Assembly: GCA_028284955.1 (NCBI GenBank)
Contig: JANQQS010000034.1
Location: forward strand, 1 to 59,494
Length of the DNA: 59,494 nucleotides
Direction: 5' to 3'
From: Myxococcota bacterium
Lineage (GTDB): Bacteria > Myxococcota_A > Polyangia > Polyangiales > Houyiibacteriaceae
Below, piece after piece: positions 1-46,883 of this stretch. The notes under the pieces are model-generated. The model searched no databases and was not told the DNA's origin. It saw only the letters and a list, made by a program, of their open reading frames with translations. The position numbers were made by a program, and so were the translations under genes. Numbering within the stretch: position 1 is the first letter of the stretch; every line of letters starts with the position of its first letter.

Positions 1-225
1 CGAGCCGCATCTTCCGTGGCGTTGAACCTGGGTGAGGGACGTCGTCGTCGCGGGCAAGACCGTACGCATCTATTCCGGATTGCCGCGGGAAGCGCTGAGG
101 AAGTCCGCACGTGTCTGCGACTCGTACAAGCTTGGGGCTATCTGCCCGATAACGCGCTTCATCCGGCGTTTGGTCATGTCGACCGAGTACTCCAACTGAG
201 CTGGGGGCTCACGTCTCGATCCTAG
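1..225 (+). CDS. Four-helix-bundle protein (23S rRNA intervening-sequence type), 5'-truncated by window edge
   Basis: The reading frame is already open at base 1 (RAASSVALNLGEG...), so the start lies outside the window. It carries the family core: an Ala-Ser-Leu-Asn-Leu-Gly-Glu stretch, then RTHLFRIAAGSAEEVRT and a final LVQAWGYL. These are the motifs of the small four-helix-bundle proteins first found in 23S rRNA intervening sequences. Function in chromosomal copies is not established. It converges with a second family member at 280-606, and a perfect terminator hairpin lies between them. The same motif string recurs as a remnant at 44543. Confidence 0.7.
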   Translation, partial: RAASSVALNLGEGRRRRGQDRTHLFRIAAGSAEEVRTCLRLVQAWGYLPDNALHPAFGHVDRVLQLSWGLTSRS

Positions 226-232
226 AAACCGG

Positions 233-275
233 AAAACCTGCGGAAAGGCGCTTCGAAGCCTTTCCGCAGGTTTTT
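233..275. terminator. Bidirectional rho-independent terminator
   Basis: A 17-bp perfect inverted repeat (arms 233-249 and 258-274, core ACCTGCGGAAAGGC) encloses an 8-nt loop. It has A-rich and T-rich outer ends on the two sides. It lies exactly between two convergent four-helix-bundle genes, so it can serve both. Confidence 0.85.
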
Positions 276-279
276 GACG

Positions 280-606
280 CTACCGGCCAGCGAGGCGCAC
301 TCGTCTCGCCGCCAACGCATCGAGATGCTCCAGTACAAGCTTCGCATCGTCTTCTTGGAGGTAGCCCCAGGCCACCGCGAGCGACACCGCGGGTTGACTT
401 TCCTTGGCGCTTCCAAGAGCGATCCGAAACAGATGCGTTCGGTCTCGCCCGGTACGTCCATTGGCTTCGGAAAGATTGAGAGCAATCGAGGAAGCGGCAG
501 TTCTTAGTTGCTTGGCGAGGCTCGGATCATGTCGACTGACTGTCGCGACAACCGGCCGCAGATGTCGGATGGTGAGAAGAGAACGTTCGAGGGCATGAAA
601 CTTCAT
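280..606 (-). CDS. Four-helix-bundle protein (23S rRNA intervening-sequence type)
   Basis: This is a complete 108-residue member of the small four-helix-bundle family. It has LRTAASSIALNLSEA, then GRDRTHLFRIALGSAKES and VAWGYLQED, closely matching the partial gene at the window start. The start chosen is ATG at 606 because AGGAGC sits eight bases upstream; an in-frame GTG at 639 would extend it into a 23-bp inverted repeat and is less likely. No enzymatic residues are apparent. It is flanked by a terminator on one side and by an inverted repeat plus a Ser/Asp repeat tract on the other, so it looks like part of a repeated module. Confidence 0.75.
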   Translation of the reverse strand: MKFHALERSLLTIRHLRPVVATVSRHDPSLAKQLRTAASSIALNLSEANGRTGRDRTHLFRIALGSAKESQPAVSLAVAWGYLQEDDAKLVLEHLDALAARRVRLAGR

Positions 607-612
607 CGTAGA

Positions 613-674
613 GCTCCTGATGTTCGGGTTGAGGGTCACGCCCCGTCTTGGCCCTCAACCCGAACATCAGGAGC
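613..674. repeat. 23-bp perfect inverted repeat with 16-nt loop
   Basis: The arms at 613-635 and 652-674 are perfectly complementary (outer end GCTCCTGATGTTCGGG). The left arm covers the ribosome-binding site of the 280-606 gene, so the hairpin could mask translation initiation. The right arm abuts the Ser/Asp repeat tract. It has no T-run and is not an obvious terminator. Confidence 0.8.
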
Positions 675-868
675 GGATGCAGATGCTGAATCTGACACAG
701 ACGCCGACGCTGATTCAGAACCAGACGCCGAGAGAGATCCCGATTCAGATGAAGATACAGATACGGACACAGAATCAGCGTCGGATTCGGCATCTGGTTC
801 GGCGTCGGTGTCGGCGTCTGGTTCGGTGTCGGCGTCTGCATCGTCTGCATCCGGCTCGGCTTCAGCAC
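674..868. repeat. Degenerate Ser/Asp/Ala-coding simple repeat tract
   Basis: About 195 bp of GAT/GAC/TCG/GCG-type triplets read as Asp-Ala-Asp-Ser-Glu-rich peptide on both strands without stops. On the minus strand an open frame begins with TTG at 872, overlapping the permease stop codon. A related tract lies at 44658-44838, also directly after a minus-strand stop codon and also next to a four-helix-bundle sequence. I treat it as repeat DNA and not as a gene. Confidence 0.75.
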
Positions 869-1831
869 TCAATCGCTCGCACTGCGGAAGCGATCAAAGG
901 CTACAGCGACGACGATGATGGTGCCGATCAGAATTTCCTGCACGTAGTTCGGCACACCCACGAGGGTGCAACCGTTGGCGAGAATCGACATAAAAAACGC
1001 GCCCACGATCGATCCAGCGATGCTGCCTGAACCGCCAGACAAGCTGCCACCGCCGATGACTACCGCCGCAATCACGTCAAGCTCTTTGCCAAGTGCAGTC
1101 GTGGGGTCGCCCACGGTGAGGCGCGCAAACTGCATCACCCCAGCGAGCCCTGCGAGCAATCCACAAAGCACGTACACGCTGATTTTGACCCTCGCCACCC
1201 GCACCCCGCACAGGCGCGCGGTGGCTTCGTTCGACCCGATGGCGATGGTGTGCGTTCCGAATACGGTTCGGCGAAGCGTGGCCGCGAGGAGCAGCGCGAG
1301 CCCCATCATCAGCCAGATTCCGGGAGCCACCATGAGCCAGGTGGGTTCCGGCGATTTGGCCATCCATCCGGCAATGCCTTCGGCTGGCGCGTCGACTTTC
1401 TGTTCTCCGGCCAGATACTTCGCGAGCCCGCGGGCAATCCCCATGGTCCCGAGCGTGGCAATGAAGGGGACGATCGAGATCCGCGTGATAAGCACACCAT
1501 TCACCCAGCCCACAAGCGCACCCGCAAGAAGCGCAGCACCCACGGCCCACGGCGCAGCCATTCCTTGGTCGAGCAGCAGCGCGATGACGACGGAGCACAG
1601 CGCAATGACGGAGCCAACCGAGAGGTCAATCCCGCCGCTCACGATGACAAACGTCATCCCCATCGCGCCGAGACCGACAATAACGGTCTGCGTGGCAATG
1701 GTTTTAAAGTTGTAGATGGAGAGAAAGCGATTCGGCTCGAGCGCCGCAAACAGACCGAACACGAGCAGGAGCCCGAGAAAAGGCCCCATCAACGCGAGCG
1801 CCCGTCGCAGTCGAGGCGCGTGGTCGCTCAT
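869..1831 (-). CDS. Sugar ABC transporter permease (RbsC/XylH type)
   Basis: This 320-residue inner-membrane protein is the permease of a ribose-type (CUT2) ABC importer. It has about eight to ten hydrophobic segments, the family string VIVSGGIDLSVGSVIAL near residues 60-80 and the conserved ELDVIAAVVIGGGSLSGGSGS loop near 250. It is the last gene of a binding protein-ATPase-permease operon on the minus strand; its ATG overlaps the ATPase stop by four bases, which implies translational coupling. Substrate cannot be read from the sequence; a pentose or other monosaccharide is likely for the family. Confidence 0.92.
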   Translation of the reverse strand: MSDHAPRLRRALALMGPFLGLLLVFGLFAALEPNRFLSIYNFKTIATQTVIVGLGAMGMTFVIVSGGIDLSVGSVIALCSVVIALLLDQGMAAPWAVGAALLAGALVGWVNGVLITRISIVPFIATLGTMGIARGLAKYLAGEQKVDAPAEGIAGWMAKSPEPTWLMVAPGIWLMMGLALLLAATLRRTVFGTHTIAIGSNEATARLCGVRVARVKISVYVLCGLLAGLAGVMQFARLTVGDPTTALGKELDVIAAVVIGGGSLSGGSGSIAGSIVGAFFMSILANGCTLVGVPNYVQEILIGTIIVVAVAFDRFRSASD

Positions 1832-44388: not shown

Positions 44389-44515
44389 TAGAGCAATGGC
44401 CTTTTGCCCTGATCGCGGCTTTCCTCCCCTGCTCGGCCAGCCGAAGTACCCGACGTACGTCGGCTGGCCTGCGCTGCCGGGGCGCTCGCGCTCAGACCAA
44501 AATTCCACTGCTCTA
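44389..44515. repeat. Nested inverted repeats after the sulfotransferase gene
   Basis: An outer pair (TAGAGCAATGG at 44389-44399 and its near-perfect complement at 44505-44515) encloses a perfect 10-bp pair (GGCCAGCCGA at 44435-44444 and its complement at 44460-44469). The inner hairpin could terminate the 43164 transcript, but it lacks a T-run. Confidence 0.6.
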
Positions 44516-44542
44516 TGGGATGCACCCCGAGCTGTAATTGAC

Positions 44543-44650
44543 CCATCTGTTCCGGAACGCCGCAGGAAGCGCCGAGGGAGTCCGTACCTGTTTGCGGCTC
44601 GTGCAAGCTTGGGGCTGACGTCGCGAGCCTAGAAAGCAAACAAACCTGCG
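44543..44650 (+). pseudogene. Four-helix-bundle gene remnant
   Basis: The frame reads HLFRNAAGSAEGVRTCLRLVQAWG and then TGA, an unmistakable copy of residues of the gene at base 1. The DNA then matches the 3' flank of that gene (CCTAGAAA ... AACCTGCGG), as if about 110 bases between two GGGGCT repeats had been deleted. The first half of the gene is missing. A Ser/Asp tract follows at once, as in the first copy. Confidence 0.8.
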
Positions 44651-44657
44651 GGAAGAC

Positions 44658-44838
44658 GCATCTGACACCGACACAGACGCCGACGCCGAATCAGATGCTG
44701 AACCAGATTCTGCGTCCGCATCTGCATCGGAATCGGGATCTCCCTCGGCGTCTGATTCTGAATCAGCATCGGCGTCTGCGTCAGCCTCAGAATCATATCC
44801 CGCCTCTGGGTCGGGCTCGGCTTCGGCGCTCGCTTCGA
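44658..44838. repeat. Second Ser/Asp/Ala-coding simple repeat tract
   Basis: About 180 bp homologous in composition and partly in order to 674-868 (both start TCTGACAC and end GGCTCGGCTTC near the gene stop). It fills the space up to the stop codon of the minus-strand histidine kinase at 44841. Read on the minus strand it begins Ala-Ser-Ala-Glu-Ala-Glu-Pro-Asp, like the first tract. Confidence 0.75.
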
Positions 44839-44840
44839 CT

Positions 44841-46883
44841 TCAGTTTTCGTGAGAGTCGTCTGCGCCCGTGGCGTTTTGGATGGCGGCGAGGAGTCGGTC
44901 TGCGGCGACGGGTTTTTGGAGGGTTCCCGCGAGCTTTGCGCCCTTGAACCGCGTTAGGAGCTCTCCTTCACTGAAACCGCTCATCAGGACTACGGGAATG
45001 TGTTCGCTGATGCCGCGGAGCTCTTCAAGAACTTCTTCTCCGCTGCGTTTGGGCATGCTGACATCAAGGAGCACGCAGTCGAACGATTGCGTTTGCTCGC
45101 GGAAGACATCGACCGCCTGCTGACCATCGGCTGCTTCGACGACATCGAAGCCGTGGTGCTTGAGTCGGCGGGACAAGATGGCGCGAAGCGGCGCTTCGTC
45201 ATCGACAACGAGGACGCGTGCGCGAGCCGAGGCGGCCGCGATTGCCGCGATGGATTCGCGCTTCTTGGCCGTGGGGATGGTCGGGAGCGCAATGGTGAAG
45301 GTGGTCCCTTCGCCCTTTTTGCTGTCGAGCTGAATCACACCGCAATGTTTGGCGATGATGCCTTTGGCGGCGGACAGACCTAAGCCGCGACCGGTGAACT
45401 TGGTGGTAAAAAACGGATCAAAGATTCGCGCGATGGTTTCCGCATCCATGCCCGAACCCGTGTCGCGCACGGTGATCCGGACGTATTCTCCAGCGGGAAG
45501 GTCAGCTTGCGGATCGAGTCGCCGGAGCGCTTTTGTGTCGTAGTAGGCGAGTTCGGAACCGACGACGATTTGGCCTTCGCCGTCGTTGAGCGCGTCGGCG
45601 GCGTTGGTCACGAGGTTCATGACTACTTGAAGAAGCTGATTCTCGTCGCCCTCGACGTATATCGGGCTGTCATGCAGCGAATACTCGAGCGTAGCTTTTT
45701 TGGGCACCGCAGCGAACACCAGACAGCTTAGTTCACGAATGAGCGCGCCGACTTCGATGCGCGATGTTTTGAGCGAGCCACGACCCGCGTAGGCGAGCAT
45801 TTGCTGGCAGAACTCGCCCGCGCGCCGGCTTGCTTCGATGATGCTGCTCAGCATCTCGACGACTTCCGATTCTGGAGGGACAACCTCGGAAGCGAACTCT
45901 GCGTTGGCGAGGATCGTTGCGAGTACGTTGTTGAAGTCGTGCGCGACGCCTCCGGCCAGTACGCCCAATGCTTCCATTTTTGCCGCTTGTCGGAGCTGCT
46001 CTTCGAGCTCGAGTTCGCGCTTTCGTTTTTCGCGCAGCGCCTCCTCGGCGCGACCTCGTTCCACCGCGAGACCGGTCATGCGCGCAGCCGCGCGAAGTCG
46101 CCCCAGCTGTTCGTCGGTTGGGGTGCGGGGTTCGGGGGCATAGAGCGCGAGGGCTCCGAGCACGTTGCCGCTGGTGCTCACGAAGGGGTGGGACCAGCAT
46201 GCCGCGACGCCGGCTTTCTCGGCGAGTACGGCGAATGGTCTCCAGAGGGGGTCGGCTTGGATGTCCTCCACGATGACGGGAACGTTCCAGTAGATGGCGG
46301 TGCCACACGAACCCACCGTGGGCCCTACTGCGTAGCCGTCGATGGCCGCATTGTATTCGTCGGGCAAGCTCGGACCCGCACCACTCACGAAGCGTCCGTC
46401 CGAAACGAGCAAGATAGAACACTTGTACCCAGGATTCTGCTCCTCCACGATTCGCGCAATCATCTCGAGTGTGCCGCGAACCGTGGCTTCCTCTTTGCTG
46501 CCTGCCCCCGGAAACTCGGTGTGCTTGGTGCGTCGAGCGAATCGCCCGAGCACCATGGATTCGTTTTCTTGCTCGGTGATTTGAATGTCGATCGGAACCA
46601 GCGACCCGTCGCGCGTTCGATGGCGGACCCGGCAGCGTCCCTCGCCGTCGTTGATCGCTGCTTGGACGAGCGCATGGTCTTCCGGGTCAACCCAGTGGAG
46701 AAAATGTTCCGTGGCGAGCTCCGTCGCGTCGTAGCCGGTTCGGTCGCGAAATGCGGGGTTTGTGCGTACGAATCCGCCTGCATTCGCGGCCCGAACGATC
46801 ATCGGCGGATTGACCGATTCGCCCGCACCTTCGTACACGGTGGAGACAGAATTCGTCGCCGCGGGCGCCTGAATAGATGTCAT
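44841..46883 (-). CDS. Hybrid sensor histidine kinase (PAS-GAF-HisKA-HATPase-REC)
   Basis: This 680-residue protein has a PAS domain (about 25-115), a GAF-like domain (about 130-275: GSCGTAIYWNVPVIVEDIQADPLW), a coiled coil (275-305) and the H-box GVLAGGVAHDFNNVLATIL with His 315. The ATPase boxes follow (NLVTNAADAL, DTGSGMD, GRGLGLSAAKGI), then a receiver domain with DD 561-562 and phosphoacceptor Asp 607 (VLLDVSMPKRSGEE). No membrane segment is seen, so it is likely a cytoplasmic sensor using GAF or PAS ligands. It has no receiver-only partner nearby. Its stop abuts a Ser/Asp repeat tract. Confidence 0.93.
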   Translation of the reverse strand: MTSIQAPAATNSVSTVYEGAGESVNPPMIVRAANAGGFVRTNPAFRDRTGYDATELATEHFLHWVDPEDHALVQAAINDGEGRCRVRHRTRDGSLVPIDIQITEQENESMVLGRFARRTKHTEFPGAGSKEEATVRGTLEMIARIVEEQNPGYKCSILLVSDGRFVSGAGPSLPDEYNAAIDGYAVGPTVGSCGTAIYWNVPVIVEDIQADPLWRPFAVLAEKAGVAACWSHPFVSTSGNVLGALALYAPEPRTPTDEQLGRLRAAARMTGLAVERGRAEEALREKRKRELELEEQLRQAAKMEALGVLAGGVAHDFNNVLATILANAEFASEVVPPESEVVEMLSSIIEASRRAGEFCQQMLAYAGRGSLKTSRIEVGALIRELSCLVFAAVPKKATLEYSLHDSPIYVEGDENQLLQVVMNLVTNAADALNDGEGQIVVGSELAYYDTKALRRLDPQADLPAGEYVRITVRDTGSGMDAETIARIFDPFFTTKFTGRGLGLSAAKGIIAKHCGVIQLDSKKGEGTTFTIALPTIPTAKKRESIAAIAAASARARVLVVDDEAPLRAILSRRLKHHGFDVVEAADGQQAVDVFREQTQSFDCVLLDVSMPKRSGEEVLEELRGISEHIPVVLMSGFSEGELLTRFKGAKLAGTLQKPVAADRLLAAIQNATGADDSHEN

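Follow-up and report, generated by a model that had tools for sequence, protein, structure and literature searches.

A small four-helix-bundle (4HB) gene stands beside a hexamer tract at the beginning of a myxobacterial contig, and the same order appears to recur farther along it. This raises the question whether a mobile element is involved, and of what kind. The window, that is the whole stretch of 59,494 nucleotides which was analysed, corresponds to contig C91 in the draft genome (6.07 Mb) of a Myxococcota bacterium.

Copies of the element in the window and in other genomes

The initial annotation regarded positions 1-870 as one copy of a repeated module, and rightly so: the segment has 98 matches within its own draft genome at E<=0.001, and near-full copies are found on contigs C185, C200, C153 and C175 with an identity of 84-94%. 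The window copy is real but incomplete, its left side being cut off by the contig edge; what remains of gene A is 96% identical to gene A of the copy on C200. A full copy comprises, in this order, a tract, a palindrome, gene A, a terminator, the convergent gene B, a palindrome and a tract, and that gene B and both palindromes belong to the unit was overlooked in the first reading. In the full copies L009 and L010 the left palindrome lies over the ribosome-binding site of gene A and a left tract is present as well, which makes the arrangement bilateral. The right palindrome of the window is found at the same position in many genome copies (Table 1). In the right tract an Asp-type half precedes a Ser-type half, the latter being approximately the reverse complement of the former, and the tract matches genome copies in either orientation. 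No Rfam match was obtained in the window.

The recurrence proposed at 44543-44838 is real, but the site is a remnant that retains the end of gene A, one half of the terminator, the tract and the stop of the minus-strand gene, without gene B and without a palindrome. Its first 76 nt (44541-44616) match window positions 64-139 with 84% identity. Both tract ends in the window stand flush (within two bases) against TGA stops. Complete 4HB elements of this genome have the ends TAGAGCAGTG...CACTGCTCTA, in common with a 127-bp MITE-like repeat of the layout TAGAGCAGTG(GCCTTTTGGCCTGA...TCAGACCAAAATTC)CACTGCTCTA, present at many genome sites. The end motif TAGAGCAGTG occurs 153 times in the genome (85 + 68) versus 3 + 5 for the reversed control. 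The MITE-like repeat frequently adjoins remnants of 4HB elements.

Table 1. Features of the two window sites and composite loci of family f14 (window coordinates, or genome:contig for the composites)
Feature	Position	Strand	Basis or remark
4HB gene A (S23/IVP family), 3' part	1-225	+	frame-1 translation; stop TAG 223-225; 5' end missing at contig start
Bidirectional intrinsic-terminator-like hairpin between convergent genes A and B	233-274		self reverse-complement match 91%
4HB gene B, 108 aa, convergent to A	280-606	-	PF05635 48.2 bits vs cut-off 33.8; AlphaFold2 model
Right palindrome, arms GCTCCTGATGTTCGGGTTGAGGG / CCCTCAACCCGAACATCAGGAGC	613-674		self reverse-complement match; overlaps gene B ribosome-binding site
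Right hexamer tract ('Ser/Asp tract'), pattern GNNNCN	670-868		27/29 hexamers in one phase over 670-843
TGA stop of permease gene (869-1831; PF02653)	869-871	-	flush with tract end; ORF table
MITE-like repeat, 127 bp, ends TAGAGCA(A/G)TG...CACTGCTCTA	44389-44515		same terminal motif as the ends of the 4HB element
Gene A 3'-end remnant	44541-44632	+	stop TAG 44630-44632
CCTAGAAA	44628-44635		within gene A remnant site
Terminator hairpin, one half (ACCTGCGG)	44644-44651		sequence
Second hexamer tract	44658-44837		27/30 hexamers
TGA stop of histidine kinase gene	44841-44843	-	just beyond second tract end
Composite L209	G135:C2		cargo: HNH endonuclease gene and second frame
Composite L210	G135:C4		cargo: unknown 430-aa frame
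Composite L211	G120:C208		cargo: HEC-01A/B candidate defence genes
Composite L212	G139:C14		cargo: HNH endonuclease gene and second frame
Composite L213	G139:C78		cargo: Schlafen/AlbA_2 and dCTP deaminase

It had been pointed out that copies of the bundle gene lacking tract and flank would reduce the two sites to chance; the other genome copies retain both. Since the ends of many contigs of this genome fall within a copy, assembly was probably broken by the element. An assembly artefact is ruled out as the source of the architecture, which is present in the single-contig genomes G024 and G044.

The 4HB layout was found across the order and the class, in many genera between which the palindrome sequences are unrelated. 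The unit of genus g2 measures about 1.1 kb and consists of a tract, a palindrome, gene alpha, the reversed gene beta, a palindrome and a tract, with the stop codons of alpha and beta overlapping at YTAR in all 21 pairs. A survey sampled by similarity, hence not random and with a few genes counted twice, covered 109 4HB genes at about 70 loci: 80 of them have a hexamer tract at a distance of up to 600 nt, 66 a convergent partner no more than 300 nt away, and 58 an inverted repeat of at least 14 bp at the gene start. Among nine classical S23-type genes of the same genomes none has a partner, none a palindrome, and one has a marginal tract. Elements of a single unit exist in G016, G035 and G044. 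In the tree, alpha and beta of g2 are sisters (94/89, just under full support), genes A and B of the window's genome form their own clade (99/98), and the two genes of the G009 pair belong to different clades. As the g2 and window pairs fall into separate clades, convergent pairs probably arose repeatedly from single units, as far as a phylogeny can tell; an ancient single origin of the alpha/beta pair is disfavoured by the same tree. Searches of phage and plasmid collections gave no match to the element, the only hits in a scan of a genome-contig collection were two distant loci of a Myxococcales MAG, and no description of such an element was found in a library of openly licensed papers.

Stop codons, hexamer tracts and palindromes

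The proposal of a dispersed element at gene 3' ends is borne out by orthologous empty and filled sites, in which the unit is placed exactly between or after stop codons. Whole units with both tracts are present in some species and absent from others at orthologous sites, exactly at TAG/YTAR stops. At L120 eleven congeners (L140-L150) have an empty site where two convergent genes share a ...YTAGC... stop, with neither tract nor core. The filled site of G001 reads ...GAGTAG / CTGGCACTGG [unit] CACTGACC / CTAGCGCC..., both tracts being located between TAG and CTAG, and only decayed tract ends are left in the near relative G012. The TAG and CTAG on either side of the unit, compared with YTAG in the empty site, may represent a target duplication, which is clean at this one locus only. 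At L121 two convergent genes of G001 end in TAG and CTA stops, and the unit occupies exactly the gap left between them; the site amounts to 14 nt in G012 and to a solo tract in G028, and insertion cannot be distinguished from deletion there. At L074 (G031) and L080 (G018) the unit directly follows TAG in both species, the site being empty in G012 and G020, occupied by a short tract in G021, and by a different repeat within tract remnants in G022, G027 and G029. Protein-coding genes border the mapped copies on both sides. At the g2 element ends a clear terminal inverted repeat is missing, in contrast to the window's genome with its TAGAGCAGTG. Another dispersed repeat of g2 (TTACACCGCCCGCCCACCCCCACCCGTARTCCTCCC...) was noticed within tract remnants at the same gene-end site (L160, L166, L167 and L042 at ~2335-2450). 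Tandem CTAGA repeats (CTAGACTAGACTAG) stand beside element ends at L025 (~250-275), L050 (~1205-1220) and L067 (~515-525), and are possibly footprints of repeated insertion or excision at CTAG.

The reading which is preferred here, with a probability of roughly 0.6, sees in the module a mobile element, non-autonomous and belonging to Polyangia-type myxobacteria; by inference, its 4HB proteins would act on the palindromes or tracts of the element itself. It has to be stressed that no movement was observed, that binding is not shown and that no mobilising enzyme was identified; moreover, the position of the insertions at stop codons may in part be due to survival and not to targeting.

The tracts of every lineage examined follow the pattern GNNNCN in a fixed phase, the other positions being lineage-specific, and this pattern is its own reverse-complement class. 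Twelve successive GNNNCN hexamers occur 841 times per strand in the window's genome versus 8 for the reversed-pattern control, a control which is uninformative in g2 because the local hexamer RCRCTG also satisfies it. The family is dispersed and multicopy, and its tracts have a fixed orientation relative to the genes, the same in 36 of 36 measured tracts from 20 g2 elements. The left and right tracts of one element do not resemble each other significantly more than tracts of different elements do (p = 0.06).

The principal rival explanation assumes that the tracts are host hexamer arrays growing after stops, perhaps as two-way terminators, on which the 4HB core and other repeats land. It is considered unlikely, but it stays the foremost alternative, given how often tracts stand alone, without 4HB genes (L119, L151, L152, L156-L158). 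It would also agree with G021 and G022, where no 4HB genes were detected in spite of many tract windows, and with the three species that carry another repeat inside the tract remnants of the L074 site. The fixed orientation is difficult to reconcile with such arrays and disfavours a pre-existing target tract as the sole explanation; distant congeners at L120, moreover, have neither tract nor core, and in G135 and G139 the tract is included in an inverted repeat. If the mobile-element reading is accepted, solo tracts would probably have arisen through recombination between two tracts of the same orientation, or through decay. Thousands of GNNNCN tract windows, far beyond what the 4HB genes would lead one to expect, were counted in some members of the order (G035, G036, G011 and G057); tracts may constitute a separate class of repeats. 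A further repeat of G001 and G012 (GAGGAGTAGGTGACTTGGGCCGCGGCGCGGGATGGGCAGC...) adjoins tracts at L119 (~1450-1540), L125 (~985-1080) and L139.

The arms of the palindromes co-vary. The g2 alpha palindrome has 22 pairs with 96% of cells paired, and changes on both sides were seen in 11 pairs and one-sided changes in none; for the beta palindrome the paired share is 92.6%, and seven of its pairs have changed on both sides. The signal was lost when the partner was slid by one base. The absence of G-U intermediates in the alpha palindrome suggests upkeep at the level of DNA, by selection or by template-switch correction; the latter could produce the same co-variation without any selection. A short palindrome AAAAGGGGACAGTCCCCTTTTT, or a near variant of it, was recorded near tracts or at the same gene-end site in genus g2 (L087, L088, L152, L163).

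The 4HB proteins and their possible role in movement

The 4HB proteins are members of the S23/23S_rRNA_IVP family (PF05635/TIGR02436) according to Pfam, TIGRFAM and the predicted fold. Against PF05635, with the cut-off of 33.8 bits, gene A of the copy on C200 reaches 57.4 and g2 alpha 67.8 bits, and the TIGR02436 scores are 47-67 bits versus a cut-off of 24. The AlphaFold2 monomer model of gene B from the window is a four-helix up-down bundle (pLDDT 92.3) with the S23-family structures 2gsc and 2rld as best PDB matches (TM 0.84-0.88), followed by Avd of diversity-generating retroelements (DGR; 4dwl, 8ub7). The match of g2 alpha to the Avd profile NF033474 is weak (23.7 bits, cut-off 80). No PADLOC family was matched by the 4HB protein. 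The first description of the genes as a family of unknown function was adequate, as PF05635/TIGR02436 has had no known function since its discovery inside 23S rRNA (PMC4990558).

Strong purifying selection acts on the 4HB genes among copies. Within g2 genomes the median dN/dS among copies is 0.065 for alpha and 0.108 for beta, and for gene A of the window's genome it is about 0.06 or lower, with synonymous divergence up to 0.41 and dN <0.02. Such low values suggest that the proteins are probably made and useful, either to the element or to the host. The second possibility is taken up by an explanation in which the units are REP/BIME-like chromosomal modules at gene ends, serving termination, mRNA stability or chromosome structure and not mobile at present, in which the host would retain the 4HB proteins as binding factors. 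The selection, the gene-end position and the sharing of sites with other intergenic repeats would suit it, yet the number of matches ranges from 0 to about 16 among species of one genus, presence differs at orthologous sites and many copies are decayed, so that little weight is given to it.

According to the preferred mobile-element reading, the basic unit would be a hexamer tract, a palindrome over a ribosome-binding site and an S23/IVP 4HB gene, and most copies here would represent two units joined tail to tail. It is inferred that copies insert at YTAR sites, which in practice would mean gene 3' ends because YTAR holds the stop codon, and that a trans-acting enzyme moves them. As Avd-like pentameric rings, the 4HB proteins might bind the palindromes or tracts of the element and promote its spread, although only a monomer model stands behind this idea; if they do so, only copies with intact genes would propagate.

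A trans-acting recombinase had been suggested as something to look for, and no candidate could be tied to the element. Mobilisation in trans by a reverse transcriptase of DGR or retron type, or by a RAYT/IS200-like Y1 transposase, could be supported by the Avd-like fold and by subterminal palindromes similar to IS200/IS605 ends. Nevertheless, in genomes that are mostly drafts, a profile search found no RVT_1 in G000, G017, G018, G029, G031 and G009, and Y1_Tnp is absent from the element-rich G001 and G031, gives one weak match in G000 and is sporadic elsewhere. A shared partner of either type is unsupported and this route appears very improbable; the moving enzyme remains unidentified, since neither is consistently present. 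Least credible of all is the idea that the tract encodes a Ser/Asp-rich protein whose expression begins at the second start site of the palindrome, for although the second arm bears a ribosome-binding site and an ATG on the tract side, the frame ends after three codons (ATG ACC AAG TAG/TAA) in L069, L070 and L081 and the ATG is out of the Ser/Asp frame in the window's genome, so that the tract is not a conserved coding sequence, a point missed in the first reading.

Known systems and composites with cargo

Intervening sequences (IVS) of 23S rRNA are inserted in a helix of this molecule and excised by RNase III. Those with an S23/IVP frame in Leptospira, Coxiella and Brucella were proposed to be mobile with the aid of the frame; it is not settled whether IVSs do move (PMC4990558). 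The myxobacterial element resembles them in its protein family and as a short element with a small 4HB gene and inverted repeats. It differs in its location outside rRNA and after the stop codons of protein genes, in having usually two convergent 4HB genes, and in the palindromes at gene starts, the hexamer tracts at its ends and the selected, intact genes. No rRNA is present in the window; as the element does not lie in rRNA, it is no IVS. The likeness to Avd is limited to the fold and the weak profile match of g2 alpha, and most element-bearing genomes tested have no reverse transcriptase. On the basis of the RVT_1 and Y1 searches, in mostly draft genomes, the element is neither a DGR nor a RAYT/REPIN system. 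MITEs and REP/REPIN sequences are likewise short dispersed intergenic repeats with palindromes, and the TAGAGCAGTG ends common to the element and the 127-bp repeat of the window's genome add to the likeness with MITEs; the 4HB element, however, encodes conserved proteins, has hexamer tracts at its ends and no linked transposase or RAYT was found at it. LTR-type elements can serve as an analogy only: they share flanking repeats of the same orientation and solo copies, whereas the tracts are degenerate and of low complexity, without true LTR identity, and a reverse transcriptase is lacking.

In this element one may see how the protein family of 'ribosomal RNA intervening sequences', puzzling for so long, is spread. 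Here the S23/IVP family occurs in elements that are dispersed, have defined ends and intact genes under selection, can be compared with empty sites in relatives and, in one genus, carry interchangeable cargo, which makes the question of mobility directly testable in culturable relatives. Such elements could also account for part of the repeats and of the assembly breaks in large myxobacterial genomes. There is a real chance that the element is a new class. The most far-reaching version, which is possible but doubtful as a whole, would be a new class of mobile elements in which bundle proteins direct insertion at YTAR stop codons via palindromes and tracts without a linked transposase or reverse transcriptase, and in which two units in inverted orientation can transport and swap cargo, for instance defence genes; if this were true, the IVSs of 23S rRNA would be a degenerate branch of that element.

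Composites were seen in one genus and at a handful of loci. In family f14 (G135, G139, G120) two outward-facing 4HB units flank variable cargo as inverted repeats of ~550 bp each, which are about 91% identical, tracts included. The cargo of one composite matches HEC-01A/B with E values of 2.6e-183 and 6e-89. L210 (G135) and L213 (G139) hold different cargo at one and the same chromosomal site, the flanks being 92% identical, and cargo exchange could be due to plain recombination between the repeats. The end sequence of the composites is GGGGTGCGGTGTGGGTGACAG.
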